Assembly (NCBI GenBank): GCA_913055155.1
Contig: CAJXJR010000002.1
Coordinates: 64,501 to 128,500, forward strand
Length of the DNA stretch: 64,000 nt
Origin: an uncultured Erythrobacter sp.
Lineage (GTDB): Bacteria > Pseudomonadota > Alphaproteobacteria > Sphingomonadales > Sphingomonadaceae
Direction: 5' to 3'
Each line of letters begins with the position of its first letter. Positions within the stretch are counted from its first letter, which is position 1. Below the pieces are notes generated by a model. That model saw nothing but the letters and a program-made list of their open reading frames with translations. It did no database searches and was not told the origin of the DNA. The position numbers and the translations under genes are program-made. Positions 9,862 to 41,454 of this stretch are shown one piece after another.

Positions 9862-10425
9862 CTACCCTTCCGGGTCGAACGGGTCCTGCGACTGTTCGCC
9901 AAACGGCCGCGTATCGGCCGGTTCGCTGCGATAGGGCGGGCGCTGCGGTAGCGTGCGCTCTCCTTTCCACGGCACCTGGTCCACCTCGGTCCAGGCGTTC
10001 ACCGTCAGCCGCCAGAACTTCCAGCGCCCGTCTTCCTTCACCAGCCGATCGTCGCGCGTGCCGATGCCGAACACGAAATTCGTCCGGTAATCGGCGTTCC
10101 ACTGCACGATCTGGAAGAAGCAGCGCACCCGCGCGCCTTCGGGATGCGGGTCCATGATGAACTGGTTCATCAGGTGCTGGCGGCCATACCACCAGTGCTG
10201 GCGGTCGTACCACAGCGAGCGCAGGTTCTGGCGAATCGCATCGTGGCCTTTCACCTTCCCCTGCCACAGGTGGTCGAACTCCGCATCGCGCGCGAAGGTG
10301 GCGATCGCCTGTTCCTCGTCGGCCAGGTCGATGCCCCAGGCATAGCGGGCATAGAGTTCCTCGATCTCTCCGCGATCCTGCGCCGGCATCACCTGCGGCA
10401 CGCCATCCGGCCAACATTCGCTCAT
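9862..10425 (-). CDS. NTF2-fold (SnoaL-like) protein divergent from a lignostilbene-dioxygenase-like gene
   Basis: This 187-aa protein has the NTF2/SnoaL architecture: an N-terminal helix pair (EIEELYARYAWGIDLADEEQAI), then FARDAEFDHLWQGKVKGHDAI, and a curved sheet ending in DGRWKFWRLTVNAW. It has no signal peptide. It is transcribed away from the carotenoid-oxygenase gene at 10504. Cofactor-free diarylpropane lyases of sphingomonads that feed lignostilbene dioxygenases belong to the NTF2 superfamily (recalled knowledge). That makes a lyase role here attractive but unproven. Alternatives are an isomerase, dehydratase or non-catalytic binding protein. Confidence 0.8.
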   Translation of the reverse strand: MSECWPDGVPQVMPAQDRGEIEELYARYAWGIDLADEEQAIATFARDAEFDHLWQGKVKGHDAIRQNLRSLWYDRQHWWYGRQHLMNQFIMDPHPEGARVRCFFQIVQWNADYRTNFVFGIGTRDDRLVKEDGRWKFWRLTVNAWTEVDQVPWKGERTLPQRPPYRSEPADTRPFGEQSQDPFDPEG

Positions 10426-10448
10426 TCGCTTTGTCTCCCGTCAATTGT

Positions 10449-10463
10449 CCGCTTGCCAAGCGG
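10449..10463. promoter_or_regulatory. Perfect 7-1-7 inverted repeat in the divergent promoter region
   Basis: CCGCTTG-C-CAAGCGG is a perfect inverted repeat between the NTF2-like gene and the dioxygenase gene. Its place in a 78-bp divergent intergenic gap suggests an operator. It is unlike the TAAC-N4-GTTA element of the core block, so another regulator would be needed. No regulator gene adjoins it. Confidence 0.4.
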
Positions 10464-10503
10464 CGCTATTGCCATTTGAATTGGGGTAACACGGGAGAGA
10501 GCA

Positions 10504-11919
10504 ATGCCGGAAATTTTTCACCCCTTCGCCAGCTTCGGACTGCAGGAACGCAAGCCCATGCGGTTCGAGGCAGACGTATTCGAATGTGAAGTAGAGGGCG
10601 AGATCCCTCCAGAGCTACAAGGCTCCTATTTCCGCAGCGGGGGTGACCGGCAATATCCCAGCCTGGAAGACGACATCATCCTCAACGGCGATGGCATGGT
10701 CAGTGCCTTCCATTTCGAGGACGGCCACGTCTCCTTCCGCAGCCGCTATGTGCAGACAGAGCGGCTGAAGGCCGAACGCGCGGCGCGGCGGCGGCTCTAT
10801 GGCCGCTACCGCAACAAGTATACCGACGACCCCAGCGTCTCGAACCTGCCGCAGCGCGACAACACCGGCAACACCTATGCCTTCGAGCATCACGGCAAGC
10901 TGTATGCCCTGCGCGAGGACAGCCGCCCCTACGAAATCGACATGGACACGCTGGAGACGAAGGGCGTTGGCGACTTCGGCGACCTCAAGTCTACCGCGCT
11001 CACCGCACATCCCAAGATCGACCCCGTCACCGGCGAATGGTGGAGCTACGGCGTCTTTGCGGATGGCGAGCCGAGCACGACCGCCAGCCTGCATGTATTC
11101 GACGCCGAGGGTAACCTGATCCGCGAGCAGATGTTCGATACGCCCTACCCCGGCCTCAGCCACGACTGGGGCGTGACGCGCGATCACCTGGTCTTCCCGA
11201 TCATGCCGCTGACCGCCGACGAGGCGCGGCTGCGCGCTGGCGGGGCCTATTACGAATACGATCCCGACCTGCCCAGCAAGTGGGGCGTGATGCCGCGCGA
11301 TGGCGATCCGGCCAGGGACATGCGCTGGTTCGACATTCCCGGCCTGGTAATGGGCCACGTGATGAACGCCTACAGCGAAGGCGACAAGGTTATCCTCGAT
11401 ACCCCCGCCTCGCCCGGCAACTGCTTCTGCTTCTTCGCCGACAAGAACGGGCGCCTGCCTGCCATGCCGGAGACGATCACGCAGATTACCCGCATCGTGT
11501 TCGACCTGTCGAAGCCGGATCACGAGGCAGTCAGCCTGCACCCGGTGCAAGGGGCACTGGGCGACATGCCCAAGATCGACGATCGTTTTGCCATGTCGAA
11601 ATACGCCATCGGCTATTTCGCCCTGCGCGACTTCCCGCAGATGGGCATTGGCCAGATCATGTGGGACACCGGCGAATTGCGCGTCCACGAATTGCAGGGC
11701 GCCGCCGCGCAGGAGCCTGTCTTCATTCCCCGCAGCGCCGATGCGCCCGAAGGCGACGGCTTCATCCTCACCGTGGTCGACCGGTTCGACGAAAAGCGCG
11801 CCGACCTGTTGATCCTCGACGGCAACGATGTCAGCCGTCCGCCGATTGCCACCATCAAGCTTCCTTTTGCCATGCCCATGGCCTTTCACGGCTGCTGGGT
11901 TCCTTTGGAGAATACCTGA
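10504..11919 (+). CDS. Carotenoid-oxygenase family enzyme, lignostilbene-dioxygenase-like (copy 1)
   Basis: This is a non-heme iron(II) dioxygenase of the RPE65/CCO family, 471 aa, expected to cleave a C=C bond to two aldehydes. The four iron-binding His fit H169 (TAHP), H220 (LSHDW), H285 (MGHVMNA) and H462 (FHGCW). A GRYRNKYTDDPS segment provides Y102, aligning with the phenol-contacting Tyr of lignostilbene dioxygenases. The companion Lys position is Arg (R137 in ALRED), so its substrate may differ from copy 2. ACGGGAGAGAGCA gives a good ribosome site. The next gene starts immediately after its stop. A true carotenoid substrate is possible, but no crt genes are nearby. Confidence 0.87.
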   Translation: MPEIFHPFASFGLQERKPMRFEADVFECEVEGEIPPELQGSYFRSGGDRQYPSLEDDIILNGDGMVSAFHFEDGHVSFRSRYVQTERLKAERAARRRLYGRYRNKYTDDPSVSNLPQRDNTGNTYAFEHHGKLYALREDSRPYEIDMDTLETKGVGDFGDLKSTALTAHPKIDPVTGEWWSYGVFADGEPSTTASLHVFDAEGNLIREQMFDTPYPGLSHDWGVTRDHLVFPIMPLTADEARLRAGGAYYEYDPDLPSKWGVMPRDGDPARDMRWFDIPGLVMGHVMNAYSEGDKVILDTPASPGNCFCFFADKNGRLPAMPETITQITRIVFDLSKPDHEAVSLHPVQGALGDMPKIDDRFAMSKYAIGYFALRDFPQMGIGQIMWDTGELRVHELQGAAAQEPVFIPRSADAPEGDGFILTVVDRFDEKRADLLILDGNDVSRPPIATIKLPFAMPMAFHGCWVPLENT

Positions 11920-12243
11920 ATGACCGATACCGCCACTGCCAAGACTCGCCTCGAAGCCCAGCTCGCAGAGCTGAAGGAACGCCTGAGCCATATCGAGCGC
12001 GACCTTGACGAGCCGCACGATCCGGATTCGAGCGAACGCGCCGTGCAGATGGAGGACGACGAAAGCCTGGAAGCCCAGGCCGCGCTCGTCACCCGCGAAA
12101 TCGCCTCGACCGACCGCGCGCTGGAACGGCTCGCCAAGGGCGAATACGGCTACTGCGTCGAATGCGGTGAGGAGATCTCGGAAGGCCGCCTCGAAGCCCG
12201 CCCCGAAGCCGCGCTGTGCATCAACTGCGCGAAGAAGGGTTAG
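11920..12243 (+). CDS. DksA/TraR-family zinc-finger protein
   Basis: This 107-aa protein has an N-terminal coiled-coil-forming helix (about residues 8-75, rich in Glu, Arg and Leu) and a C4 zinc finger. The finger is CVEC in YGYCVECGEEI, followed 17 residues later by CINC in ALCINCAKK. Family members bind the RNA polymerase secondary channel and modulate transcription. It starts directly at the end of the dioxygenase gene, implying co-transcription. It is shorter than DksA and closer in size to the short DksA-like proteins. Whether it regulates the neighbouring catabolic genes is unknown. Confidence 0.88.
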   Translation: MTDTATAKTRLEAQLAELKERLSHIERDLDEPHDPDSSERAVQMEDDESLEAQAALVTREIASTDRALERLAKGEYGYCVECGEEISEGRLEARPEAALCINCAKKG

Positions 12244-12274
12244 GCTGGCCTTTCACCCGTAGGAAAGGGCCTGC

Positions 12275-13138
12275 CTAGCCGGTAACCCGGCGCACGAAGC
12301 CTGCCACCATGCGCTCGGTCTCGGTCTGGTCGCTGCCGATGGAGAGACCGGGCGCCAGGTGGTTGTGGCCGGAAAGGTAGTGCATCTCGGGCAGGCGGCC
12401 CTTGGTCGCGGTCCACTGCGTCACCACCTGCGCGGCCTGGCGGTGGAAATCGTCCGGGTCGAACTCGGCCACGCTGAACTGCATCGGCACCGGCGATGCC
12501 AGCAGGCCCGCCAGCGCCGAGGCCGGCCCCCAGCCCTTGCGATCATCGCCATAATAGGCGCGACCGAAGGGGTTATCCTCGGCGGTGAAGGTGTCGTAGA
12601 TGCCGCTCATGAACACCGCGCCCGCGATTCCAGCGGCATGGTCGCGCGCGTGGGCAAGGTAGTTGGCGACGTGCGCGGCGCCCGCGCTCTGGCCCATCAG
12701 CACGATCTTGCCCGCATCGCCGCCGTGTGCGGCAATGTTTTCGCGCAGCCAGTCAACGAACAGCCGCATGTCCTCCACCCCGCTGGGGAACTTGTGCGCG
12801 GGCGCAAGGCGATAGGTCATGGTCACGCCCACCCAGCCCATGCGCGCGGCAAAGTCGCCAACGTTGGAATAGAAGGGCGAGCCTTCGGTATGCTTGTCGC
12901 CCATCACGAAGCCGCCGCCGTGGACATAGACCAGCACCGGCGCGCCCTTGGGCGTTCCTTGCGTGAACACGTCCAGCCGGTGGCGCTCATCAGGGCCGTA
13001 GGCAAGGTCGCGCGTCACCTGCGTTTCGGAGGCGAGACCCTTGTTGCGCTCTGCCATCAGCTTTTGCGTGCCGCCCAACATGTCGGGCGTCAGGTCGTGG
13101 CCGAGGGCTTCAAGTTTCGCGCGCAGGTCAGGCGTCAT
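12275..13138 (-). CDS. Alpha/beta hydrolase, hormone-sensitive-lipase-type esterase
   Basis: This is a 287-aa cytoplasmic esterase. The oxyanion motif HGGGF starts at H73, the nucleophile elbow is GQSAG with S151, and Asp (EFDPDDF) and His (SGHNHLAPG) candidates follow in order near the C-terminus. All three catalytic elements are present. The start codon overlaps the 3' end of the upstream zinc alcohol dehydrogenase gene by 11 bp, so the two are one transcription unit. A role in hydrolysing an ester of an aromatic intermediate is inference from context. Confidence 0.9.
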
Positions 13139-14258
13139 CGCTATTCTCCATCAGCAGGACAGGCTTGATCGCCGCGCCCGATTTCGCATCGGCCCAGGCG
13201 CGGTCGATCTCTTTGAAGGGGTAGAACGACAGTAGCCGGTCGAACGGCAGGCGGCCTTGCCGCCAGTAGTCGGCCAGCTGCGGCAGGAAGGTGCGCGGGT
13301 TGGCATCGCCGCCCAGGATACCGCGCAGCTGCCGCCCGCCCGCCAGCATGGCGAACATCTGCGGCGCCCACGGGCCGTTGGCATCGGGCAGTGGTGCGGC
13401 GACGAAACCGGCGGTGCCGTTCATCGCCAGCACGTCCAGCGCCATGGTGTGCACGGGCGGTGCATTGGTGGTGTTGAAGGTAAACTGCATGCCGCGCCCG
13501 GTTACCTTGCGGATGGCATCGGCAAGGCCCTCCTGGTCGCCGCGGAAGGTGTGCGTCGCGCCCAGCTCGCGGGCGAGCTCCAGCCGCTCGTCCGACAGGT
13601 CCACGGCGACGATATGCTTGGCCCCCACCAGCTTTGCCGCCATCACCGCAGAAAGACCCACGCCGCCGGTGCCGAAGACGGCGATGGAATCGCCAAAGCC
13701 AACCTTCAGCGCCTCGATCACGCCGCCTGCACCCGTCACCACGCCGCAGCCAAGCGGACCGAGCTTTTCCAGCGGCAGGTCCTTGTCCATCTTCACCGCC
13801 GTGCGCTGGGGCACGATTGCGTGGGTGGCAAAGCTCGACTGGCCGAAGAAGTGCGAATGCACCGGGTGGTCGCCCTCATCTGCGTGTTGGCACAGCGCGG
13901 TGGAACCATCCAGCCGCTTGCCGCAGAAGCACAGCGGCATGGCAAGGTCGCAATAGGTGGGGCGCCCGGCAAGGCAGCTGGGGCACTGGCCGCAGCTGTT
14001 ACCGGAAAGGATCACGTGGTCGCCCACAGCAAAGCCGGAGACGCCTTCGCCCAGTTCCTCCACCACGCCGGCACCTTCGTGGCCCAGCACGATGGGCTGG
14101 GGCGAATGCCTGCCGGGGTGTTCGTGCAGGTCGGTATGGCAAATGCCGGTGGCGACGAGGCGGATGCGCATTTCGCCGGCGCGCGGCGCTTCCTGCTCCA
14201 GTTCGACCAGTTCGGGCGCGTCTCCGCCCCGGCCGGAAAGGGCTGCGGTAATCTTCAT
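13128..14258 (-). CDS. Zinc-dependent NAD(P) alcohol dehydrogenase (aryl-alcohol type)
   Basis: This is a medium-chain dehydrogenase, 376 aa. Catalytic zinc ligands fit C40 (GICHTD), H60-E61 (LGHEGAG) and C171 (PLGCGVV). The structural zinc cysteines are C89, C92, C95 and C103. The nucleotide motif is FGTGGVG near residue 195. I chose the ATG at 14258 (MKITAALSG); an in-frame upstream ATG at 14312 lacks conserved sequence. The closest functional group appears to be benzyl/aryl-alcohol dehydrogenases, matching the aldehyde dehydrogenase upstream. An NAD-dependent oxidation of an aromatic alcohol is plausible. Confidence 0.9.
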
Positions 14259-14415
14259 GCCATGCCTCCTGCGCGGTAATGTGGAGCACCTGGAGCACTG
14301 TCCTGCGGGCAAAAACTGCCGGGATGGACCGGGTCTGCAAAATGGCCTGTACGCTGCGGGCTGGCGAGGCGAGTCATGCGCGAAAGGTGCCTTTGCAATC
14401 CACTTGTAGGCAAGC

Positions 14416-15858
14416 TCATGCCCCCTTCCCCAGGTGATGGTCGTCGCGGATATCGGCCACTGCGCCGGTCTGTGTCAGCAGGCTCTTGCGCCTGAGGAAC
14501 CGGCGCAGGCTTTCCGGCCCGATGCGCGGGGCGCCATGGCCGGACCAGCCGAAGCTGTCGCTGCCGAAAGTGCGCATCTTGGCGAAGGTGAGGAAGGTAT
14601 CCTGCAGGAATATCCCGCCTGCGTTCAGGCGCCGCCCGATGGCTTCGGCCTCTTCCGCAGTCCCGGCGATCACGCTGGCGGTGAGGCCGAACTGCGTATC
14701 GTTGGCCAGGCGGATGGCGTCTTCGGTATCGGCATAGGCCATCACCGGGATGGTGGGGCCGAAGGTTTCGTCCTGCATGATCGCCATGTCGTGCGTCACG
14801 CCGGTCAACACGGTGGGCCGCAGGTAGCGCCCGCCGTCGATCTCCTCGACCGCGCCGCCGCATTCAACCTTTGCCCCCTTGGCCACGGCATCGGCGATGT
14901 GCGCGGCGACGATATCGGCCTGCGGGCCATGGGTGAACGGGCCGATGTGCCCGGCGCGCGGGTTATCGGTGTTGAGGCGCACCTCGGCGGCCTTTGCCAC
15001 CAGCTTTTCGACGAATGCATCGTGGATGACCTGGTGCACATAAACCCGCTCTACCGAGTAGCAGACCTGCCCGGTGGCATAGACCGCGCCGCGCAATACC
15101 GCGGTGGCCGCGCGTTCGAGGTCGGCTGTTTCGGTGACGATGCACGGATCCTTTCCGCCCAGTTCCAGGTGGCAGGGGATCAGCCGTTCGGCGCAGGCCA
15201 CGGCCACCTTGCGGCCCGTGGGCACGGATCCGGTAAAGCAGATCGTGTCTGCCTCCCCGATCACCGCCTGCCCCACGTCGCCAGCACCGGTGACATAATC
15301 GAACACCGCGGCCAGTTCGGGCACTTCGCGCACGGTTTCGAACAGCACCTCGATCACGCGCGGGGTAATTTCGGAGGGTTTGAGCAACACCGCGCAGCCC
15401 GCGAACAGCGCGGGCACGGCATCGAGCAGCGCCAGCATCAGCGGCGCGTTCCACGGAGAGATGACACCCACCAGCGGATAGGCCACGACCTGGCTCTGCA
15501 CGCGCACCGTCGGCATGGAGGGGCTCATCGCGTCGTATTCCAGCGCGGCGAAGGCCCTGGGCGCGTCTTCCAGCCAGCCGCCCACATTGCCCATCGTGAT
15601 GAAGCCTTGCAGGTAGCTGGTGTGACAGCCGCCGGTATCGTGGGCATCGGCCTCGCCAATGTCCGCCGCGCGCGCCTTTACCGCCTGCAGCCAGCGCGCC
15701 ATCACCCCGCAGCGCCCGCCAACGCCCATGGCTTCCCACGCGGGTTGCGCCGCACGCAGGGCTGAGGCCTTGGCGGCCACATCCTCGCGCGTGGCAGGCA
15801 CGATCGCGTGATCCGCCTGCCCCGTGCGCGGGTTTATGACTTCGAGCTTGCCCATCAA
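14416..15858 (-). CDS. NAD(P)-dependent aldehyde dehydrogenase (copy 1)
   Basis: This 480-aa aldehyde dehydrogenase superfamily enzyme has the catalytic Glu in LELGGKD (E232) and nucleophile Cys in TGQVCYS (C266). ISPWNAPL is the N-terminal signature and FTGSVPTGRKV is the cofactor loop. It oxidises an aldehyde to an acid. It is separated by 157 bp from the alcohol dehydrogenase on the same strand. Together they could take an aromatic alcohol through aldehyde to acid. The ATG ATG at the start leaves a one-residue ambiguity. Confidence 0.92.
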   Translation of the reverse strand: MMGKLEVINPRTGQADHAIVPATREDVAAKASALRAAQPAWEAMGVGGRCGVMARWLQAVKARAADIGEADAHDTGGCHTSYLQGFITMGNVGGWLEDAPRAFAALEYDAMSPSMPTVRVQSQVVAYPLVGVISPWNAPLMLALLDAVPALFAGCAVLLKPSEITPRVIEVLFETVREVPELAAVFDYVTGAGDVGQAVIGEADTICFTGSVPTGRKVAVACAERLIPCHLELGGKDPCIVTETADLERAATAVLRGAVYATGQVCYSVERVYVHQVIHDAFVEKLVAKAAEVRLNTDNPRAGHIGPFTHGPQADIVAAHIADAVAKGAKVECGGAVEEIDGGRYLRPTVLTGVTHDMAIMQDETFGPTIPVMAYADTEDAIRLANDTQFGLTASVIAGTAEEAEAIGRRLNAGGIFLQDTFLTFAKMRTFGSDSFGWSGHGAPRIGPESLRRFLRRKSLLTQTGAVADIRDDHHLGKGA

Positions 15859-15906: not shown

Positions 15907-17925
15907 TCAGAACCCGTAGCGCACACCGATCCAGAAGGTCTGCGGCACGCCGATGTCGATCGCGCCGCCGCTGTTGCGGGTGACGATCACCTCGTCGAGC
16001 AGGTTCTCCACGCGGGCGATACCCGACAGCTGGCCCACCAGCGGCACCTGTGCGAACAGGTCCACCGTGGTGGCAGGCGGCAGCGGTTCGGTTTCCTGGT
16101 CGCTTTCGTACTGGCGACCCACGTGGCGCAGCGTAGCGGCCAGCAGCGCGCCGTCCATCGGGCGCCAGCTGGCGGTGGTGCTGAAGCTGACGTTAGGCGT
16201 CTGCGGCGGCAGGTTGCCGTCCAGCACGGCAGCCGGGCCGGTGCCGACGATTTCCGGCGCGGTGTAGACCAGCGTGCCGTTGAAACCGAAATCGCCAAGG
16301 TCCAGCGCCGCGGCCACTTCGATGCCCTGCGCATCGATCGCATCGAGGTTGCGGCGCTGGCGCAGGTTGGTGCCGATGGTGACGTTGGCAATCGCGTTCT
16401 TGACCCGGTTATCGAAGAAGGTGGCCGACAGCGACATGAAATCGGCAGCCGCCAGGTCGAAACCGAACTCCCAGCCTTCCAGCCGTTCGGGCTCGAGGTC
16501 GGGGTTCGCCTCGGTCACCACCGGGAAGACCACGAAGGGACGATAGAGTTCGTTCAGCGTGGGCAGGCGGAACCCGCTGTAGGCGGCAGCGCGCAGGGTG
16601 AGCGCGCGGTTCACAGCCAGGCGCATGCCTCCGCGCCAGGTCACTTCCCAGTCGCTGCGATCGGGGTACACATCATCGGTCAGCACGGCGCCGCTGGCGT
16701 CCAGCGCGCGATAGTAGCCATCGTTGATGGTGTAGCGGTCCGCGCGCACACCGGCGGTCAGCGTGATCGGGCCCAGCGACACGTCATGATCGACATAGAA
16801 GCCAAGGTCGGTGTTCACGCCGCCGGCAAAGCGGTTTTCGCGCAGTGCGCCGGTGAAGGCGGAATAGCTGTCTTCGAACAGGTCGCCCTCGCTGCGGCGA
16901 TAGTCCACGCCCAGGCGCAGGTTCTGGAAGTCCCCCACCGGAGGGCGCAATTCGATCTTGCCGCCAAGGCCGCTCGCCGGCGTGTCCTTCTGGTCCAGCA
17001 CGGGGACGTAGCGGGTGGAAGAGATGATGACATTGCTGAAATTGCGCCACTGGCCATAGGCAATGGCATCCAGCTGCCAGTCACCGCGCGTCACCACGCG
17101 CACGGACACGTCTTGCCCGCGCACCATGTTGTCGGCGCCGTCGAAGCGCAAGGTGCGGTTGTCCTCGAAGGCAAGGCCGCGCACCTGCAGTTCCAGGTCT
17201 TCACCCACCTGCTGCACCACGCGCCCGCTGGCGGACCAGCTTTCATAAGCCGCGCGCGCAGTGGCGGGCACGCGGTCCGCCTCTGGCGTGGTGTAGAAGC
17301 CCTTGCCGCGATCCCAGCGCCCGCTGACAATGGCATAGCCATCGTTCCACGAAGGCGCGGCGGTCAGCGAGGTCTGCGTCTCGCCACGATCGTTCACCAG
17401 CGCCTGTCCCGTGAACAGGCCCAGCGTCTGGGCATCGGCACTGGTCAGCTCGATCGTGCCTGCCAGCGCGCCGGCGCCGAACGGGCCGGAACCCCCGCCG
17501 CGAGTCACGCGGATGGAAGAAAGCCGTTCGGGCGCGATGGCATTGAACGGTACGTAGCCGAAGAAAGGATCGACCATCGGCACGCCGTCGAGCAGCACCA
17601 GCGCCCGGCTGGATGCGTTGCCACCCAGCGCGCGCAGCGTGGCGCCCTGCGCGGTCGGGTTGGAACTGCGGCTGTCGGACCGGCGGAATTCCTGGAACCC
17701 CGCGACGTCACGCAAGGCGTCTTCGAAAGTGCCCGAACCGGTGGAAGTGATTGCCTCGCGGTCCAGCTCGATCACCGAATAGGCCGGCACGGAAGGCACA
17801 TCGGGCAGGCCTTCGCCCAGCACGATGATTTCATTCCCTTCATCATCGCCGGCGTCGCTGGACTGGGCGTGAGCGGGGAAAGCGATAAGCAGGCAGGCAG
17901 CACTTGCCAGGAGGGGGGATTTCAT
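15907..17925 (-). CDS. TonB-dependent outer-membrane receptor
   Basis: This 672-aa protein has a Sec signal (ending FPAHAQS), a TonB-box-like EIIVLGEG, a plug domain (FEDALRDVAGFQEF, TLRALGGNASSRALVLLDGVP, IRVTRGGGSGPFGAGALAGTIEL) and a 22-strand barrel-like C-terminus ending in the aromatic GVRYGF. It imports a ligand across the outer membrane using TonB energy. Its placement between aromatic-oxidation genes suggests uptake of an aromatic compound, but siderophore or cobalamin transport is not excluded. It is divergent from the NTF2-like lipoprotein gene. Confidence 0.93.
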   Translation of the reverse strand: MKSPLLASAACLLIAFPAHAQSSDAGDDEGNEIIVLGEGLPDVPSVPAYSVIELDREAITSTGSGTFEDALRDVAGFQEFRRSDSRSSNPTAQGATLRALGGNASSRALVLLDGVPMVDPFFGYVPFNAIAPERLSSIRVTRGGGSGPFGAGALAGTIELTSADAQTLGLFTGQALVNDRGETQTSLTAAPSWNDGYAIVSGRWDRGKGFYTTPEADRVPATARAAYESWSASGRVVQQVGEDLELQVRGLAFEDNRTLRFDGADNMVRGQDVSVRVVTRGDWQLDAIAYGQWRNFSNVIISSTRYVPVLDQKDTPASGLGGKIELRPPVGDFQNLRLGVDYRRSEGDLFEDSYSAFTGALRENRFAGGVNTDLGFYVDHDVSLGPITLTAGVRADRYTINDGYYRALDASGAVLTDDVYPDRSDWEVTWRGGMRLAVNRALTLRAAAYSGFRLPTLNELYRPFVVFPVVTEANPDLEPERLEGWEFGFDLAAADFMSLSATFFDNRVKNAIANVTIGTNLRQRRNLDAIDAQGIEVAAALDLGDFGFNGTLVYTAPEIVGTGPAAVLDGNLPPQTPNVSFSTTASWRPMDGALLAATLRHVGRQYESDQETEPLPPATTVDLFAQVPLVGQLSGIARVENLLDEVIVTRNSGGAIDIGVPQTFWIGVRYGF

Positions 17926-33366: not shown

Positions 33367-33893
33367 TCTTCCGGCTTGGTACGTTCGAGGAACAGCGAAT
33401 TGCCCTGTTCGTCCTCGGCATCGAGGCGTTCGATCAGACGTTCGACGATGCTGGCGAAGCCTTCCAGCTCGGTCTGTTCCAGCTTGCCGAACAGGTAGTG
33501 CGCCACGGTTTCGGTCTGCGGTCGCATGATCTCGTACAGGCGCCTGCCTTCATCGGACAGGCTCAGCCACTTGCGGCGCTTGTTGCCTTCATCGCGCTCC
33601 ACCACCACGCGGCCGTGCTTTTGCAGCGTGGCAACGGCGCGGCTGATGCTCATGGCGTTGACACCGGTCAGCTCGGCCACCTCGTGGCTGGCCGTCTTGC
33701 CCAGTGCGCCAATCGTCATCAACACGCGGAATTCGTTGAGGCTGATCTTGTAGCGATGCGAAAGGTGCATCGAGAACGGCGCCATCAGCCGGTTCGTCAG
33801 TTTCAGCAGGCGATGCAGCAGCACGACCTCGTCGGCTTCATCCATGTGCACACTGGCGCCGGACTTCAGCGCCACGCCGGAATCCCCGTCCAT
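33363..33893 (-). CDS. MarR-family transcriptional regulator
   Basis: This 176-aa winged-helix regulator has the DNA-binding core ISLNEFRVLMTIGALGKTASHEVAELTGVNAMSISRAVATLQKHGRVVVERDE. MarR proteins bind short palindromes as dimers and release on binding phenolic ligands. I chose the ATG at 33893, preceded by GGGAG seven bases upstream; the frame is open further up but without a ribosome site. Site C lies about 50 bp upstream of it, so autoregulation is likely. It is the only MarR-type regulator in the window and the best candidate to bind all four TAAC-N4-GTTA sites. Confidence 0.9.
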   Translation of the reverse strand: MDGDSGVALKSGASVHMDEADEVVLLHRLLKLTNRLMAPFSMHLSHRYKISLNEFRVLMTIGALGKTASHEVAELTGVNAMSISRAVATLQKHGRVVVERDEGNKRRKWLSLSDEGRRLYEIMRPQTETVAHYLFGKLEQTELEGFASIVERLIERLDAEDEQGNSLFLERTKPEE

Positions 33894-33994: not shown

Positions 33995-35482
33995 ATGGGA
34001 TTTCCGCAGACCATTCATTTCATCGGCACCAACACGCCGCGCCAGCAGGAATATGCGCTGGAAGGGCTTGAGGTTGAGGGAGAAATCCCGGCAGCCATCA
34101 GCGGCAAGTTCTTTCGCGCGGTGCCCGACAACGCGCACGAACCGATGTTCGAAGACGATATCGCGCTCAACCACGACGGCATGATTTCGGCCTTCTCCAT
34201 CGACGGCGGAAAGGTCGATTTCGCCATCAAATATGTCGAGACCGAGCGTTACCTGGCCGAAAAGGAAGCGGGCCGCGCACTGTTCGGGCGCTATCGCAAT
34301 CCCTTTACCGACGATCCCAGCGTAAAGGGCAAGGATCGCACCGTCGCCAATACCACGCCCGTGTGGCACGGGCATCGCCTGTTCATGACCAAGGAAGACG
34401 GGCGCGGCTACGAAGTAAATCCGCACACCCTCGCCACCGAGGGCCGCTGGGACTACGACGGCAAGCTGAAGTCCCAGACCTTCACCGCGCACCCGCGCAT
34501 CGATGCGCAAACGGGCGAGATGTTCTTCTTCGGCTACGAAGCGGGCGGGCTGTGCAGCCTCGATGTTGCCTATTGCATTGCCGACAAGGACGGCAAGCTG
34601 GTGAAGGAACAGTGGTTCGACCAGCCCTATTGCTCCACCATCCATGACTTCGTGATTACCGAGAATTACGCGATTTTCCCGCTGTTCCCGACGCTGGCCG
34701 ATCTCGACCGGATCAAGGCAGGCGGCGCGCACTGGGCGCACCACCAGGACCTGCCCAGCTACCTGGGCATCATGCCGCGCTATGGCGACGTGTCGGAGAT
34801 GACATGGATCGAGGGGCCCATCGGCGTTTCCTGCTTCCACGAGGTGAACGCCTTCGAGGACGGAGACACCGTCCACGTCGACCTGTGCCTGACCAACACC
34901 AACGCCTTCCAGTTCATGCGCGAGGCGGGTGGCGTCGATATTCCGCAGCAGGAAATCCAGGGCGCCCTGACGCGCTGGAGCGTGGATATGAGCGCCGACA
35001 AGCTGGCCATCGCCGAGCGTCCGCTCGGCCCGCCGGGAGACCTGTGCCGGGTGGAAGACGCGGTGCAGGGCCGCCCCTACGACCGCGCCTGGTATCTCAG
35101 CATGAACCCGGAAGCCAAGGGACCGCCGATGCTGGGCGGCCCGGTCGGGGCGAACTTCAACTGCATGCTGCGCATCAATCCCAATACCGGCCAGCTGTCG
35201 ATGATGGAGACGCCTCCGGGTGCAGCCATCAGCGAGCCTGCGCACGTGGTCTCGCCCGTGGAAGGCCACGGCGGCTGGCTGCTGACCGTGATCGACATTC
35301 CCAATGGCCCTCCTGGTGCAGGCGACCCGTCGGACTATTCGAGCGAGCTGTGGGTGGTGGAAGCCGACGCCATCGAAAAGGGCCCGATTGCCAAGGTGAA
35401 GACCGGCAAGGCGCTGCGCAGCCAGGTCCACGGCACCTGGGTCTCGCGCGAGAAGCTGGAGAACAGCATTCGCAAGGGCTGA
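33995..35482 (+). CDS. Carotenoid-oxygenase family enzyme, lignostilbene-dioxygenase-like (copy 2)
   Basis: This is a 495-aa iron(II) dioxygenase. Iron ligands fit H166 (TAHPRID), H217 (STIHDF), H282 (CFHEVNAF) and H479 (QVHGTW). Tyr in FGRYRNPFTDDPS (Y100) and Lys in MTKEDG (K133) align with the Tyr and Lys that bind the substrate phenol in characterised lignostilbene dioxygenases (recalled knowledge). This favours cleavage of a 4-hydroxystilbene-type alkene to two aromatic aldehydes. I chose the ATG at 33995, nine bases after AGAGG; a TTG two codons earlier is possible. Site C is its likely control element. Confidence 0.9.
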   Translation: MGFPQTIHFIGTNTPRQQEYALEGLEVEGEIPAAISGKFFRAVPDNAHEPMFEDDIALNHDGMISAFSIDGGKVDFAIKYVETERYLAEKEAGRALFGRYRNPFTDDPSVKGKDRTVANTTPVWHGHRLFMTKEDGRGYEVNPHTLATEGRWDYDGKLKSQTFTAHPRIDAQTGEMFFFGYEAGGLCSLDVAYCIADKDGKLVKEQWFDQPYCSTIHDFVITENYAIFPLFPTLADLDRIKAGGAHWAHHQDLPSYLGIMPRYGDVSEMTWIEGPIGVSCFHEVNAFEDGDTVHVDLCLTNTNAFQFMREAGGVDIPQQEIQGALTRWSVDMSADKLAIAERPLGPPGDLCRVEDAVQGRPYDRAWYLSMNPEAKGPPMLGGPVGANFNCMLRINPNTGQLSMMETPPGAAISEPAHVVSPVEGHGGWLLTVIDIPNGPPGAGDPSDYSSELWVVEADAIEKGPIAKVKTGKALRSQVHGTWVSREKLENSIRKG

Positions 35483-35541: not shown

Positions 35542-36576
35542 ATGAGGACAGTCTTTTTCGCCGCTCTGGCGCTCGCCGCTACGCCGTTGGCCGCGCAGGA
35601 GCCCACGTTCGAGGAACAGATGGCCGCGCGGTTCGAGCCGCCACCGCCGGGCTGGGAAATGCCGCGCACGCAGTGGGGCGACCCGGACCTGCGCGGCAAG
35701 TGGCCGGTCGACTATCTTGGCCGCACACCGCGCGAACGCAGCCCCGCGCTGGGTGAGCGCGCCTTCCTGACCGACGAGGAATACGAACGCGCCTTCGCCC
35801 GCGCCGACAGCGACCTGGGCCGTTACGAGGAAGAGGAACGCGCAGGCCTGATGGCCATGGGCCACTGGGCCGAATTCGGCCACCCGCTGCGCCAGTCGAG
35901 CATGATCGTGGAGCCGGCCAACGGCCGCTACCCGCCGCTGACCGAACTGGGGCAGGAGTGGAAGGCGAACGAGCGCACCAGCTGGAACACCTACGTATTC
36001 GAGAACATGGACGATTTCGGCATCTTCGACCGCTGCCTGACACGTGGCATGCCCGGTTCCATGCTGCCCGGCGCCTACAACGGCGGGATCGAGATCTTCC
36101 AGGCGCCCGGCCTTGTCGCCATCAGCCTGGAGATGATCCACGAGACGCGGCTGGTCTACCTCGACGGGCGCGAACGTCCCGCGCCTGACGTGCAGTACGA
36201 CCTCGGCTTTTCACTCGGCCACTGGGAAGGCGATACGCTGGTGATCGAGACCACCAATTTCCGCCCCGGCATGTCGATGGGCCCCGCCCCCAATTCGGAC
36301 CAGCTGCACGTGACCGAGCACCTGACGCTGATGAACGACAACCAGATCCACTACGAGGCCTGGGTGCGCGATCCGCTGGTGATGGAAGGCCACTACAAGC
36401 TCGACCTGCCGTGGCTGCGCGAGGACGATTACGGCATGTACGAATATGCCTGCCACGAAGGCAACGTGCAGATCCGCGGCTATATCACCGCCACCAGCCC
36501 GCGCTTTGCCGAAGAGCGCGCGCAGGCCTGGATCGAACAGGGCGAGGAACCGGGTGAAGGAGTGCCCGTGCGATGA
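35542..36576 (+). CDS. Secreted protein of uncharacterised family (GHWEGDTLVIETTNF type)
   Basis: This 344-aa exported protein has a signal peptide ending ATPLAAQ. The most conserved part is SLGHWEGDTLVIETTNFRPG, a motif I recognise from a large unannotated family in sphingomonads and other soil bacteria. Other segments are WGDPDLRGKWPVDYLGRTPRER and GIEIFQAPGLVAISLEMIHETRLVYLDGR. No catalytic motif is recognisable. It is 59 bp downstream of the dioxygenase gene and overlaps the next gene by four bases, so it is part of the site C operon. The function is unknown. Confidence 0.8.
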   Translation: MRTVFFAALALAATPLAAQEPTFEEQMAARFEPPPPGWEMPRTQWGDPDLRGKWPVDYLGRTPRERSPALGERAFLTDEEYERAFARADSDLGRYEEEERAGLMAMGHWAEFGHPLRQSSMIVEPANGRYPPLTELGQEWKANERTSWNTYVFENMDDFGIFDRCLTRGMPGSMLPGAYNGGIEIFQAPGLVAISLEMIHETRLVYLDGRERPAPDVQYDLGFSLGHWEGDTLVIETTNFRPGMSMGPAPNSDQLHVTEHLTLMNDNQIHYEAWVRDPLVMEGHYKLDLPWLREDDYGMYEYACHEGNVQIRGYITATSPRFAEERAQAWIEQGEEPGEGVPVR

Positions 36577-37003: not shown

Positions 37004-37981
37004 ATGACCAAGACCGCACTTGCCGCGCTGCTGGCTTCCGCCGCGATGGCAGCATCCGCCGTGGCGCAAGCCGAAGACTCCGCATGCGACCGCGATTGCC
37101 TGATCGCGCTGGCCGACGCCTATGCCAGCGGCGTGGTGGCAGACGATCCGGGCGCCGTGCGCTGGGCCGATGATGCCGTGGTGGTGGAGAACCAGTCAGC
37201 CATCGCCGCGGGCGAAGGCATTTTCGATACCGTCACCGCCGGGCCTACCACCGACTACGCGGTGCATGTCGCCGATCCGGTCAGCCAGCAGGTCGGCCTG
37301 CTGACCATGATGAGCGAAGGCGATGCGCCGGTGTTCGTCGGCATTCGCCTGCAACTGGACGAGGAAGGCCGCGTGGCGGAGGCCGAACACCTTGTCGCGC
37401 GCGATCTTTCGCCCGGCCAGCTGGCCAACCTGCAGGACGAACGCCCGCGGCTGATGGAACCCGTGCCCGAACCCTACATGGACAGCCGCGCGCGGATGAT
37501 CTGGCTGGGCCGCAGCTATTACGACGCGCTCGACAACAACAATTCGGCCCATTCCAACATGGCCGACGATTGCGAGCGGCGCGAAAACGGTTTCCAGACG
37601 GCGCGCAACCCGATGGTGCGCGAGAGTGCGGGTGGCAACGGCCAGTTCGACCCGATCTTCGCCTATCTCGGTGGCCTTGGCTGCGCGGCGCAGATGGATA
37701 CCAACATGTGGGAATACATCACCCGCATCGAGAACCGCCGGGTGGAGATTGCCGATCCGGTGACGGGCCTGGTCTGGGGTGTAAGCCACTTCGAGCACGA
37801 TTTCGACAAGCAGGACTTTGCCCTGGTCGGCGTGCCGTGGGCGGACAACCGCCACATGGAATTCGATCCTTTCGACATGCCGGCGATCCACATCTACAAG
37901 GTGTGGGGCGGCGCGATCCACGAGATAGAGGCGCTGGGCATCGTCATGCCCTACCAAACCCCGCACGTGTTCGAGGACTGA
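37004..37981 (+). CDS. Internally duplicated NTF2-like protein, exported paralogue
   Basis: This 325-aa protein has a Sec signal (MTKTALAALLASAAM through AVAQA). The mature part is a paralogue of the cytoplasmic protein at 30841-31713: VENQSAIAAGEGIFDTVTA, IRLQLDEEG, LVARDL, DCERRENGFQTARNP and GGAIHEIEALG align with its counterparts. Two halves are again visible. A pair CDRDC follows the signal and could form a disulfide. It ends the operon that starts with dioxygenase copy 2. The existence of a cytoplasmic and a periplasmic version suggests related substrates on both sides of the membrane. Confidence 0.8.
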   Translation: MTKTALAALLASAAMAASAVAQAEDSACDRDCLIALADAYASGVVADDPGAVRWADDAVVVENQSAIAAGEGIFDTVTAGPTTDYAVHVADPVSQQVGLLTMMSEGDAPVFVGIRLQLDEEGRVAEAEHLVARDLSPGQLANLQDERPRLMEPVPEPYMDSRARMIWLGRSYYDALDNNNSAHSNMADDCERRENGFQTARNPMVRESAGGNGQFDPIFAYLGGLGCAAQMDTNMWEYITRIENRRVEIADPVTGLVWGVSHFEHDFDKQDFALVGVPWADNRHMEFDPFDMPAIHIYKVWGGAIHEIEALGIVMPYQTPHVFED

Positions 37982-38022: not shown

Positions 38023-38038
38023 CAGGTCGGAAGCGCGC

Positions 38039-38645: not shown

Positions 38646-38726
38646 CATAGGAGGGTAATTCCCCTGTGGACTTGTCAGCCTGGCCGGACAGGCGCAATCT
38701 GTGGGGCAGGAGAGAGGGAGAGTGAC

Positions 38727-39302
38727 ATGAACCGCAAAGCCGTTTTGCCTACAGGCCTCGCCTGCCTGATTCTGGCCGCCTGCAATTCCGCCGATACCGG
38801 CGGTGCGCCCGATCCGGCCATGCAGGAAGCCATCGACCGCGTGGCCATCGAGGACATGGTGGTGGAATACTACGCCCATCTCGGCGGCGGCGATGCGAGC
38901 GCCTTCGACGACTATTTCACCGAAGACGCCGTGTTCGACGTGAACGGCAATATCGCAACGGGGCGCGAAGAGATCGAAGCGCTTTACGGTTCCATCGGGG
39001 AGGACCCCTCCAGCGCCTCCAACCAGGGCGGCCCTTTCCGCATGCTGCTATCGAACCCGGTGATCGAAGTGGATGGCGACAGCGCAACCGCCAGCTTCAT
39101 CTGGACCGGCGTCGGCAACCCGGCGATCGACGCTCCGCCCGTACTGCTGGAACAGGGCCGCGAGTTCGACCGGCTGGTGAAAGTAGACGGCGAATGGAAG
39201 TTCAGCCACCGCGTGGTGATCGCCGACAGCGGCCTGCCGGAAGGCCAGTACCCCGACTACACGCCGCGCCGCGATTTTGGCGTCGAAGACCTCAACCCCT
39301 GA
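38727..39302 (+). CDS. NTF2/SnoaL-like lipoprotein
   Basis: This 191-aa protein has a lipobox LAAC at residues 16-19, so it is membrane-anchored in the periplasm. The SnoaL-like domain has IDRVAIEDMVVEYYAHLGGGD, FTEDAVFDVNGNIATGREEIEALY and VDGEWKFSHRVVIADSG. It is the second periplasmic NTF2-type lipoprotein in the window. It converges with the DUF3237 gene. Its partner and reaction are unknown. Confidence 0.8.
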   Translation: MNRKAVLPTGLACLILAACNSADTGGAPDPAMQEAIDRVAIEDMVVEYYAHLGGGDASAFDDYFTEDAVFDVNGNIATGREEIEALYGSIGEDPSSASNQGGPFRMLLSNPVIEVDGDSATASFIWTGVGNPAIDAPPVLLEQGREFDRLVKVDGEWKFSHRVVIADSGLPEGQYPDYTPRRDFGVEDLNP

Positions 39303-39306
39303 GCGG

Positions 39307-39837
39307 TCAGGTCAGCGCGTAGTAACGCAGCAGGTTGCCATCGCTGCGCCGCTCGCCCACGCCGATGAACACGTGCTTGGTCAGCCAGTCGTGCTTGCCA
39401 ACGGCGCATTCGAAAGTGGGGTTGCCGCGCAGGTAGTATTCGGGGTGCGGCACCGGCTCGCCGTCGCCAAAGGCCCAGTCGCGCAGGCGCTGCATGGTGT
39501 CGGGCTGGCGCCCCCACAGGAAGCCCTTGTTGTGCAGCAGGATGATCGTGCCGTCATCCTCCTCCAACAGGTAGCGGGCATCGAACACGGCCACATCGTC
39601 CGGGCGGAAATAGGCGTAGTCGCCGCCCGATCCCGGCACCGCGCGCCCTTTCAACTGCGGCCCTTCGAAGGTGCCGCCCTGCACCAGCACGGCGGTGCGC
39701 ATCCCGCCACCCGGATGCGGGGCAATGGAATAGACTTCCGGAAAGGTCAGCCGTACTTCCATCACGAATTCCAGGCGCGGGTTATCGAGCTCGCTGAACG
39801 GCGGCTGGAACGGCGTGGTGTCGGAAAATTCGGTCAT
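39307..39837 (-). CDS. DUF3237 domain protein
   Basis: This 176-aa protein shows the DUF3237 pattern: PRLEFVMEVRLTF, GGGMRTAVLVQGGTFEGPQLKG, VPGSGGDY, then FDARYLLEEDDGTIILLHNKG and the C-terminal TFECAVGKHDWLTKHVFIGVG. No biochemical function is assigned with confidence to the family. It starts 2 bp after the SDR gene stop, in an operon with the SDR and an NTF2-like gene. A small-molecule binding or lyase role is plausible by context. Confidence 0.85.
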   Translation of the reverse strand: MTEFSDTTPFQPPFSELDNPRLEFVMEVRLTFPEVYSIAPHPGGGMRTAVLVQGGTFEGPQLKGRAVPGSGGDYAYFRPDDVAVFDARYLLEEDDGTIILLHNKGFLWGRQPDTMQRLRDWAFGDGEPVPHPEYYLRGNPTFECAVGKHDWLTKHVFIGVGERRSDGNLLRYYALT

Positions 39838-39839
39838 TT

Positions 39840-40589
39840 CTATCCCAGTTCGATGAGTCCGCCATCGACGAACAGGTTGGCACCCGTGATGAAGCTGGCA
39901 TCGTCGCTGGCAAGGAACAGCACGGCTTTCGCCACGTCCGCACTCTCGCCCATGCGCTTCATCGGGATGTTCTGGATCATCATGTCCTTCAGGCCCGCCA
40001 CCTGTGCGTCGGTCATGCCGGGGTTGCGGTAGAGCAGCGGCGTGTCGATCGGGCCGGGGCTGACCACGTTCACGCGGATGCCCTCGCTCACCAGTTCCTT
40101 GGCAAACACCTTCATCGCCATGAACAGCCCGGCCTTGGCCGCGGCATAGGTGCCGTTGCCTTCCAGCGCACCGTGCGCGCCGATGGAGCCGGTGACGACG
40201 ACAGAGCCACCCTTGCCCATGAGGCGAATGGCCTTTTGCAGCGCGAACACGCAGCCGCGCAGGTTGATTGCATGGGTATGGTCCCAGGCGTCCTCGGTAA
40301 TGTCGCGCAAGGGTGCGAAACCGCCAACGCCTGCGTTGATGTAGAGCACGTCGATGCGGCCATCGGCCTCCTGGATGGCTTTCACGACCGCCTCGGTCGC
40401 AGCAGGATCGGAAATGTCGGACCGGTAGCCGGTAGCACCCGGAATGCTTTCGACTGCGGCATCAATGGTGGCCTGGTCGCGGCCGGTCAGGTGAACCGTG
40501 CCACCTTCGGCCGCAAACATCTTCGCAGCTTCCAGCCCCATTCCCGAATTGCCACCCAGGACGAGGACGATCTTGTCTTTGAAACGCAC
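39840..40589 (-). CDS. Short-chain dehydrogenase/reductase
   Basis: This 249-aa classical SDR has the cofactor motif GGNSGMG near residue 12, NAG in YINAGVGG near residue 86, catalytic Ser in VTGSIGAHG and the YAAAK site. It oxidises or reduces an alcohol/ketone with NAD(P)(H). All catalytic residues are present. It lies between the NTF2-like gene (11 bp upstream) and the DUF3237 gene in the minus-strand operon of site D. A benzylic alcohol dehydrogenase role is a reasonable guess. Confidence 0.92.
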   Translation of the reverse strand: MRFKDKIVLVLGGNSGMGLEAAKMFAAEGGTVHLTGRDQATIDAAVESIPGATGYRSDISDPAATEAVVKAIQEADGRIDVLYINAGVGGFAPLRDITEDAWDHTHAINLRGCVFALQKAIRLMGKGGSVVVTGSIGAHGALEGNGTYAAAKAGLFMAMKVFAKELVSEGIRVNVVSPGPIDTPLLYRNPGMTDAQVAGLKDMMIQNIPMKRMGESADVAKAVLFLASDDASFITGANLFVDGGLIELG

Positions 40590-40600
40590 CGGAAAGCTCC

Positions 40601-40990
40601 TCAGAAGGGGGACAGCGGGTTGAGACGATCGGGATCCACGTCCTGCATCACGTCCCAGTGTTCGGCGATCTTGCCGTCTTCGACGCGGAAGATATCCATC
40701 ACCGCGAAGCCCGGATCGCCCTCGTGCCGGATCACGTGGTAGTGCAGCATCACGTGGTCGCCATCGACGAAGGAGCGGTGCAGGATCTGCTCGGCCTCTC
40801 CCGGCTGGCCTTTCGCCCAGTCGAGAAAGCTCTTCAGCGCCTCACGCCCCGGCTCCACGTTCTGGTGGTGCTGGATGTAGTCGGGCGAAATGTACTCATC
40901 GACGCGGGTGCTATCCAGCGGCACCAAAACGTTTTCGAACATCTCCACCACGAGACGCAGGTTCGCCTCTTCTTCGGGCGTACGGCTCAT
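40601..40990 (-). CDS. NTF2/SnoaL-like protein
   Basis: This 129-aa cytoplasmic SnoaL-like protein has NLRLVVEMFENVLVPLD, DEYISPDYIQHHQNVEPG, HYHVIRHEGD and DIFRVEDGKIAEHWDVMQDV. The YIQH and EHWD motifs match the periplasmic lipoprotein at 18036-18587, and resemble proteins predicted as SnoaL-like aldol-condensation enzymes. It is first in the minus-strand operon and starts 28 bp from site D. Confidence 0.85.
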   Translation of the reverse strand: MSRTPEEEANLRLVVEMFENVLVPLDSTRVDEYISPDYIQHHQNVEPGREALKSFLDWAKGQPGEAEQILHRSFVDGDHVMLHYHVIRHEGDPGFAVMDIFRVEDGKIAEHWDVMQDVDPDRLNPLSPF

Positions 40991-41018
40991 TTTTCCTCCC
41001 CTTCTGTTGCACTGATGC

Positions 41019-41030
41019 TAACGCGCGTTA
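41019..41030. promoter_or_regulatory. TAAC-N4-GTTA palindrome, site D
   Basis: TAAC-GCGC-GTTA lies in the 68-bp gap between two divergent NTF2-like genes. Its inner bases make the whole 12-mer a perfect palindrome. It continues as CGATTGTCGGCAACA, resembling the continuation at site A. It is the fourth matching palindrome. Confidence 0.72.
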
Positions 41031-41058
41031 CGATTGTCGGCAACACAAAGGGACAGGG

Positions 41059-41454
41059 ATGACCCGAGAAGACTACGACTACTACGCTGAAGCGTTCAAC
41101 GCGCGCGATTACGACGCTGTGTTCGATTTCTATGTCGACGATCCGGACATCTGCTTCTTCGGCGTGGAAATCCGCACGCGCGAGCAGCTGCGCGACTTCT
41201 ACACCTTCCTCCACACCTATGTGCGCGAGACCGTCACGGTGGAGAAATTCGCTTCGTCCGAAGAGCTCGTCGCGCTCGAAGGCATTATCCGGGTGGAAGG
41301 CATCAAGGACCTGAACCGCGAGGAACTGGATGCGCGCGGGCTCGACCAGTTTTTCCCCATCAAGGCTGGCGACGTGCAGGAAATCCGCCAGTACATCCAC
41401 TATCACATGCGCGATGGAAAGATTGCCAGCGTCGGCTGCGCCATCGTGGCCTGA
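41059..41454 (+). CDS. NTF2/SnoaL-like protein
   Basis: This 131-aa protein has a short N-terminal helix (DYDYYAEAFNARDYDAVFDFY), a VDDPDICFFGVEIRTREQLRDFY segment and a sheet ending EIRQYIHYHMRDGKIASVG. This is the NTF2 pattern with few other landmarks. It has no signal peptide. It starts 28 bp after site D and 12 bp before the core-MetE-like gene, so the two are probably coupled. Confidence 0.8.
   Translation: MTREDYDYYAEAFNARDYDAVFDFYVDDPDICFFGVEIRTREQLRDFYTFLHTYVRETVTVEKFASSEELVALEGIIRVEGIKDLNREELDARGLDQFFPIKAGDVQEIRQYIHYHMRDGKIASVGCAIVA

Follow-up and report, generated by a model that had tools for sequence, protein, structure and literature searches.

Two NTF2-fold lyases acting on lignin dimers, LdpA and PcfL, are described as characterised in the literature cited here, and a 2026 review (PMC12997858) counts 62 NTF2 homologues in SYK-6 alone. 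The pin pathway for the beta-beta lignan pinoresinol is described from N. rhizosphaerae LY and from PinZ and PinX of SYK-6; for the step that resolves the quinone methide, the pinoresinol papers cited name no separate enzyme. The same review sets LsdF beside PinU in one row of a table and gives SLG_27980 as PinY. Lysate containing LSD5 (LsdF), one of the lignostilbene dioxygenases (LSDs) of SYK-6, cleaves lignostilbene in preference to DCA-S, and the physiological roles of the SYK-6 LSDs are called undetermined in that report (PMC8191317). Here we analyse a stretch of 64,000 nucleotides ("the window", positions 64501-128500 of contig C2) from the 3.10-Mb, 21-contig genome of an uncultured Erythrobacter sp. 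(GCA_913055155.1), in which nine genes for NTF2-fold proteins lie around two LSD genes between positions 9862 and 41454. We consider it probable, from the gene content and its conservation, that this region is a sphingomonad catabolic island for lignans and related lignin dimers, composed of two modules, in which the NTF2 proteins would act as cofactor-free acid-base catalysts. Genes are named below by their first position in the window.

The two LSD-like genes proposed in the initial annotation, 10504 (10504-11919, plus strand) and 33995 (33995-35482, plus strand), were confirmed as RPE65 family members by a Pfam scan with curated cut-offs, which covered the genes between 7962 and 50842, 40 of the 63 called in the window. 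In the PDB, both match best to lignostilbene dioxygenases and to a member of that family entered as "Dioxygenase", and both keep the four columns that hold His in all 24 aligned LSDs. By its position in the tree and its residues, 33995 is the orthologue of SYK-6 LsdF: it is 63-64% identical to the SYK-6 LSD at 3.018 Mb, falls into the LsdF clade, and has Tyr101, Lys134, Leu59 as in LsdF and Phe283 as in LSD5 and LSD6. Residue 283 in the eight SYK-6 LSDs agrees with the letters published for LSD1 to LSD8 (PMC8191317), which confirms the naming of the SYK-6 LSD genes. The closest named LSD found for 33995 is that of Aurantiacibacter odishensis (91%). The other enzyme, 10504, groups with LsdB in the LSD tree (support 0.92), yet the two are only 40% identical. 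It keeps the four His and the Tyr, but has Arg at the position of Lys134, as does its relative in one sampled genome (G103), so that its substrate may differ.

RPE65 enzymes also cleave carotenoids, and carotenoid enzymes occur among the weaker PDB matches of both LSDs. Together with the Arg of 10504 and the existence of a steroid dehydratase, Hsh2, among NTF2 enzymes (PMC12175502), this would fit an island for other compounds (apocarotenoids, resveratrol-type stilbenoids or steroids) whose likeness to the pin genes is superficial. We hold this to be quite improbable, as 33995 retains Tyr101, Lys134 and all four His, lysate of its SYK-6 orthologue cleaves lignostilbene (PMC8191317), and genes of the O-demethylation type (GCV_T and MTHFR) and for a tannase/feruloyl esterase lie alongside.

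The genes around 33995, in a core module of about 18-41 kb, include homologues of PinZ, PinX, PinW, PinV and PinU in one stretch, the window proteins being 40-66% identical to those of SYK-6 or N. lentum. The NmrA-type reductase 25117 (25117-26025, minus strand) is 47% identical to SYK-6 PinZ, which nothing else in the genome matches at E <= 0.001. The DUF3237 protein of decarboxylase type 39307 (39307-39837, minus strand), one of four DUF3237 genes in the genome, is 64% identical to SYK-6 PinX, 41-42% to PhcF and PhcG, and 75% to the copy in the SYK-6 lsdF cluster. The flavoprotein 29157 (29157-30692, minus strand) belongs to the p-cresol dehydrogenase/vanillyl-alcohol oxidase family according to Pfam and is 45% identical to the N. 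lentum flavoprotein encoded next to pinX; its neighbour, the Pfam-assigned cytochrome c 28756 (28756-29160, minus strand), a putative partner of PinV/PchC type, is 40% identical to the N. lentum cytochrome beside PinX. The PinW and PinV likeness of this pair was judged on the N. lentum proteins. Further relatives at the SYK-6 pinX-pinZ locus are those of the aldehyde dehydrogenase 21429 (21429-22895, minus strand; 61%), of the pyrroloquinoline quinone (PQQ) alcohol dehydrogenase with cytochrome c domain 22913 (22913-25120, minus strand; 59% to the gene next to pinX, and likewise 59% to the one preceding pinX in N. lentum), and of the NTF2 protein 41059, which is 54% identical to the product of a gene between pinX and pinZ.

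In N. lentum a run of genes reads tandem NTF2, PQQ alcohol dehydrogenase, PinX, flavoprotein and cytochrome c; its first gene product is 51% identical to the window protein 30841. The run is flanked by relatives of 40601 (50% identical), of the short-chain dehydrogenase 39840 (39840-40589, minus strand; Pfam) and of 21429, as well as by genes for LdpA and PinZ, the latter coupled to an LSD gene; within the 39 kb of N. lentum covered, we saw no relatives of 26120 and 32935. The order of genes published for LY (PMC12997858) agrees with this arrangement. Two LY genes upstream of pinX are reported to show pinoresinol-specific transposon effects, while their deletion left growth possible (PMC12607616); by synteny with N. 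lentum, these two may be the PQQ alcohol dehydrogenase and the tandem NTF2 gene. The SYK-6 lsdF cluster (SLG_27970 and its neighbours) shares with the window an orthologous LSD as well as flavoprotein, cytochrome c, DUF3237, MarR, aldehyde dehydrogenase and NTF2 genes; it differs in having a gene placed as the PinY of the GMC family beside lsdF, next to which the SYK-6 counterpart of 26120 is located. SLG numbers outside the table of the review (PMC12997858) were assigned by gene order. With an LsdF orthologue next to relatives of PinZ, PinX and PinW/PinV, the core thus resembles the published pathway for pinoresinol, and lignans appear likelier as its substrates than diarylpropanes or phenylcoumarans.

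Conservation of the locus was followed in 298 sampled genomes of the family, from 96 genera. An LSD match at E <= 1e-100 is present in 40 genomes, which represent 16 genera, and reaches at least 70% identity in 26 of them (the window's own included); judged by the LSD alone, the island core recurs in 16 of the 96 genera. We compared 40 kb around the LsdF orthologue in 20 of the 40, namely in 19 of the 25 other genomes with an LSD at >=70% (70-85% identical) and in SYK-6, counting genes at the DNA level at >=50% identity. The flavoprotein, the cytochrome c, the aldehyde dehydrogenase 21429 and the MarR regulator 33363 (33363-33893, minus strand; Pfam) are kept in all 20 neighbourhoods, the PinZ-like reductase in 18, the PQQ enzyme 22913 in 17, and the PinX-like protein and short-chain dehydrogenase in 13 each. 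Among the NTF2 genes, 32935 is present in 19 (absent only from SYK-6), 26120, 18036 and 30841 in 18 each (for 18036 within 20 kb), 40601 in 13, 41059 in 10, 37004 in six and 38727 in five. This uneven retention rules out that the nine genes form one uniform system. A wider set comprised 77 named loci, with LSDs 44-91% identical and flanks of up to 10 kb, some loci being shortened; in the 57 full-length loci (about 21 kb each), NTF2-type genes called by BLAST average 2.7 per locus, against 0.19 from the genome background.

For 26120, 29 hits at E <= 1e-40 were found in 28 of the 298 genomes, all 28 among the 40 with an LSD. Within 20 kb, an LSD accompanies 24 of the hits and a flavoprotein 23, the latter mostly 0.4-3 kb off; the flavoproteins considered were the 32 best of 99 matches (identities down to 61%, with a few near 50%), so that weaker copies nearby would escape. 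In one genome the flavoprotein is 418 bp from the 26120 relative and the LSD 680 kb away, in two others an LSD is near and no listed flavoprotein is, and the second copy of 26120 in SYK-6 is near neither. The idea that 26120 tracks the flavoprotein more strictly than the LSD was therefore dropped: it sits closer to the flavoprotein, yet is not strictly tied to it.

A real gene was found at each of the nine coordinates given in the initial annotation. SnoaL_4 is matched above the curated cut-off by 9862 (9862-10425, minus strand; 6e-19), 26120 (26120-26614, plus strand), 32935 (32935-33360, minus strand) and 38727 (38727-39302, plus strand), and SnoaL_2 by 18036 (18036-18587, plus strand; 2e-12), 40601 (40601-40990, minus strand) and 41059 (41059-41454, plus strand). 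The scan gave no Pfam match for 30841 (30841-31713, plus strand) and 37004 (37004-37981, plus strand). However, the AlphaFold model of 30841, built from 26 rows, has a mean predicted local distance difference test score (pLDDT) of 90.0 and a predicted template modelling score of 0.90, and NTF2/ketosteroid isomerase structures align with both of its halves, residues 1-107 as well as 130-277, at Z scores of about 11-12; 30841 is thus predicted to be a tandem NTF2 protein, and 37004 is its paralogue (26% identity, E 1e-22). The gene starts with TTG; this start was preferred over the alternative gene-caller start at 30868, as the relatives in two sampled genomes (G102 and G103) begin at the matching residue, while the SYK-6 relative has been called longer. 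For 26120 (27 rows), the five models range in mean pLDDT from 85.9 to 62.0, and the best one matches NTF2-fold proteins (Foldseek best E 2.7e-10; VIA with Z 17), including the LdpA entries 8abt-8abw (E 2e-7 to 8e-7); a second list of 50 fold matches does not include LdpA, which carries no weight given its presence in the first. The structure prediction and comparison suggested at the outset, run for these two proteins, predict the cone-shaped alpha+beta NTF2 fold for 26120 and for both halves of 30841. The PDB search with the 41059 profile returned no match at E <= 0.01, so its fold assignment rests on Pfam SnoaL_2; in the alignment of 41059 with 11 of its 14 relatives, fragments and near-copies being excluded, Arg110, Tyr112, His114 and His116 are invariant. 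Compartments were judged by eye from the sequence starts: 18036 (LTAC) and 38727 have lipoboxes, 37004 has a signal peptide, and none was noticed in the other six, in line with the mixture of cytoplasmic, lipoprotein and exported forms originally described.

The density of these genes is far above the background. Genome-wide, 14 SnoaL_4 and 23 SnoaL_2 matches (the two NTF2 models searched) correspond to about 27 distinct genes after overlaps were merged by hand, which gives an expectation of 0.28 for the 31.6-kb stretch that holds seven of them (Poisson P 2e-8), and in 20,000 uniform placements no stretch of that length ever received seven. Chance clustering is thereby ruled out.

One alternative, close to the proposal of the initial annotation, is that the NTF2 proteins would be lyases of the LdpA/PcfL type, which remove the gamma-carbon of diarylpropanes (beta-1) and phenylcoumarans (beta-5) as formaldehyde. 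Some observations speak for it: the fold predicted for 26120 is the same, 9862 pairs with an LSD, the SYK-6 counterpart of 9862 lies between the beta-5 genes phcFG and phcCD, and in a 13-row alignment the Asp and His of 9862 (Asp33-His84), 26120 (Asp23-His75/His76) and 32935 (Asp25-His71) align with those of SYK-6 LdpA. The aligned LdpA His is residue 97 when counted along chain 8abt, and the title of PDB entry 8abu names the LdpA mutant H97Q with erythro-DGPD. The pair is kept in 27 of 27 rows for 26120, 18 of 18 for 32935 and 21 of 21 for 9862 (the window locus being counted twice), the alignments for the first two including 26 of 35 and 17 of 22 relatives after exclusion of fragments and near-copies. 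Nevertheless, none of the nine is an LdpA orthologue. The genome has its LdpA orthologue at 207 kb of contig C4 (75% to SYK-6 LdpA) and a second LdpA-type gene at 179 kb of C2; of the proteins compared by BLAST with SYK-6 LdpA, the three that match best are all encoded outside the window; and phmmer searches with 32935 and 9862 singly gave no LdpA chains (8abt-8abw) among the matches listed, these being reached with a profile and, for 26120, by fold. The SnoaL_4 proteins of the window are also shorter, without the long C-terminal part of LdpA, and the core gene set matches the pin genes. On this balance, an LdpA-type lyase activity appears unlikely to us. The lipoprotein 38727 departs further: it and its seven relatives have Gly in place of the catalytic Asp (8 of 8 rows), and the His is absent from 38727 and shifted by one column in six of the seven relatives, so that 38727 may no longer be catalytic.

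The LdpA orthologue has a neighbourhood of its own (C4:199000-214413), with genes for a SnoaL_2 protein, amidohydrolase-like and MetE-like proteins, a PQQ alcohol dehydrogenase and an aldehyde dehydrogenase, a layout that resembles the window. At C21:2518-6760, three successive genes overlap at their ends and possibly encode a wholly periplasmic lyase-LSD pathway: their products are an LSD whose start looks Tat-like, a PQQ alcohol dehydrogenase, and a SnoaL_4 NTF2 protein whose start resembles a signal sequence (both starts judged by eye).

The left module (9862-15855) is of the LsdB type and consists of 9862, the LSD 10504 and genes for an alpha/beta hydrolase (12275-13138, minus strand; Pfam Abhydrolase_3), a zinc alcohol dehydrogenase (13128-14258, minus strand; Pfam) and an aldehyde dehydrogenase (14416-15855, minus strand; Pfam). 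The last three are 55%, 71% and 64% identical, respectively, to neighbours of lsdB in SYK-6, and 9862 is 64% identical to a protein encoded in SYK-6 between phcG and lsdB (from the gene order, SLG_09410). The module differs from the phc/lsdB cluster in that its LSD is just 40% identical to LsdB, its gene order is unlike, and no GMC gene of PhcC/PhcD type was found among the 40 scanned window genes. Relatives of 9862 occur in 27 of the 298 genomes, all among the 40 with an LSD. In 19 of 20 loci fetched from these 27 hits (the window's own included) the gene directly adjoins an LSD, 13 times back to back (the window's own and LSDs 75-81% identical to 10504) and six times in the same direction (38-42%); in the twentieth, SYK-6, LsdB comes after two other genes. 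The gene is found in none of the twenty 40-kb LsdF neighbourhoods, and its distance from the LsdF orthologue is 23-36 kb in 12 genomes, that of the window among them. In SYK-6 itself, four NTF2-type genes are found at 985-1025 kb among phcF, phcG, lsdB and two GMC genes that by their place would be phcC and phcD. The one directly after phcG may be the published phcH; we equate phcH with SLG_09380 only as a guess, drawn from the gene order and a single sentence of PMC8191317.

The published pinoresinol pathway suggests the following order of steps in the core module. The PinZ-like reductase 25117 would open the benzylic ether, and the PQQ alcohol dehydrogenase 22913 and aldehyde dehydrogenase 21429 would convert the gamma-alcohol to the acid. 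The DUF3237 protein 39307 would then remove CO2 and open the ring, after which the flavoprotein 29157 and cytochrome c 28756 would convert the phenol by oxidation into a quinone methide. A stilbene- or butadiene-like product would arise once formaldehyde is lost, and the LsdF/PinU-like enzyme 33995 would cleave this product to aromatic aldehydes. In the left module, 9862 would make or prepare a stilbene for the LSD 10504 in the manner of LdpA and LsdA, together with the alcohol dehydrogenase, the aldehyde dehydrogenase and the hydrolase. The NTF2 proteins could provide acid-base catalysis at quinone-methide, dehydration, isomerisation or deformylation steps: most likely, 26120 would act on what the flavocytochrome produces and 41059 alongside the DUF3237 decarboxylase, with 18036, 37004 and 38727 in the periplasm or at the membrane, where the PQQ enzymes would also act.

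Several observations weigh against this reading. Dehydratases have an Asp-His pair of this kind too, among them scytalone dehydratase, and so does LinA, both of these being among the fold matches of 26120, so the pair indicates an acid-base enzyme and not which one; with LdpA as a single outgroup, moreover, its His falls off His84 of 9862, for which the match rests on the 13-row alignment. The co-occurrence counts are uncorrected for the relatedness of the genomes, and in the wider set of 77 loci retention is looser (relatives of 26120 in 35, of 30841 in 32, of 40601 in 23, of 32935 in 22, of 41059 in 19 and of 18036 in six), the 20 neighbourhoods having come from genomes with more similar LSDs; among the 57 full-length loci, 11 lack any NTF2-type gene in the BLAST test. 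The distances of 26120 have the exceptions given above, the SYK-6 lsdF cluster lacks 32935, 22913 and 25117, and the G103 genome carries a relative of LSD 10504 (81%) without 9862. No GMC oxidase of PinY type was matched among the 40 scanned genes, a PQQ alcohol dehydrogenase being found instead. The PinZ-like protein forms a clade of its own and the PinW-like one is at 45%, so that the substrate may be another lignan. Finally, the six LY genes reported essential for growth on pinoresinol include no NTF2 gene (PMC12607616), and the NTF2 partners may therefore be dispensable or serve another substrate.

This last point, the variation of the gene sets between genomes (37004 and 38727 in few neighbourhoods, some loci with none) and the missing Asp of 38727 would also fit NTF2 proteins that are general helpers of aromatic oxidation clusters, for example acid-base isomerases or proteins that bind or detoxify reactive aldehydes and quinone methides, without a fixed step. 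Four NTF2 families are nevertheless kept in 18-19 of the 20 neighbourhoods, and 9862 adjoins an LSD in two different gene orders, which makes such a general role somewhat unlikely in our view. Among the forms that the favoured reading of a lignan island may take, we advance one only tentatively, giving it less than an even chance: new, separately evolved NTF2 enzymes with fixed partners, in which 9862 would be the lyase that forms the stilbene within an NTF2-LSD pair, 26120 would resolve (deformylate) the quinone methide from the flavocytochrome, and 41059 would be paired with the DUF3237 decarboxylases. The general idea of the initial annotation, new NTF2 lyases, dehydratases or isomerases for phenolic dimers, is right as regards the setting in dimer catabolism, the conserved NTF2 genes, the pairing of 9862 with an LSD and the Asp-His pair of three proteins. 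The exact NTF2 family is not, as the nine are neither LdpA orthologues nor one set, 38727 lacks the Asp, and the core points to beta-beta lignans, which had not been named.

Other genes of the region include, at the left border of the core, a TonB-dependent receptor (15907-17925, minus strand; Pfam; 16 of 20 at >=50%) and a second PQQ alcohol dehydrogenase with cytochrome c domain (18593-20770, plus strand; Pfam), which is little conserved (2 of 20). Within the core we found the tannase/feruloyl esterase (26654-28219, plus strand; Pfam Tannase 1e-90; 3 of 20), an MFS transporter (31710-32945, plus strand; Pfam) and a protein of unknown family (35659-36576, plus strand; no Pfam match; 10 of 20). 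Beside the flavocytochrome genes lies one for a small protein (28241-28759, minus strand) whose start looks Tat-like by eye and which we liken to PchX. This protein has relatives (31-69%) in 14 of the 77 named loci and in none of the 20 neighbourhoods at >=50%; often next to flavoprotein and cytochrome c, it may serve to bring the flavoprotein, which has no signal of its own, into the periplasm. To the right follow a MetE-like methyltransferase (41467-42594, plus strand; Pfam; 12 of 20), an IclR regulator (42647-43411, plus strand; Pfam; 13 of 20), a GCV_T protein (44318-45745, minus strand; Pfam), an MTHFR-like (MetF) protein (46668-47540, plus strand; Pfam) and FolD (47622-48560, plus strand; Pfam). 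We take the GCV_T protein to be an O-demethylase of LigM/DesA type; it is 53% identical to the SYK-6 protein presumed to be LigM from the place of its gene, and the MTHFR-like protein is 48% identical to the product of the gene beside it. Elsewhere on contig C2 (8105-18368), an LsdD orthologue (76% to SYK-6 LsdD) is found with DUF3237, MarR-like and MFS-like genes, and beside it, judged from the sequence starts, a putative glutathione-dependent formaldehyde dehydrogenase, an S-formylglutathione hydrolase and a formate dehydrogenase, as if for the disposal of formaldehyde.

Our literature searches turned up no work on the lsdF-cluster NTF2 genes or on the activity of the nine proteins. The island links specific NTF2 families to specific partner enzymes, and their SYK-6 counterparts are open to deletion. 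The lsdF cluster, whose role is reported as undetermined (PMC8191317), thereby gains a pathway frame. If the proposed reading is true, NTF2 enzymes would act at several steps of lignan catabolism, beyond the deformylation carried out by LdpA and PcfL, and if the individual roles hold, they would offer cofactor-free enzymes for lignin valorisation and insight into how quinone-methide steps are controlled.

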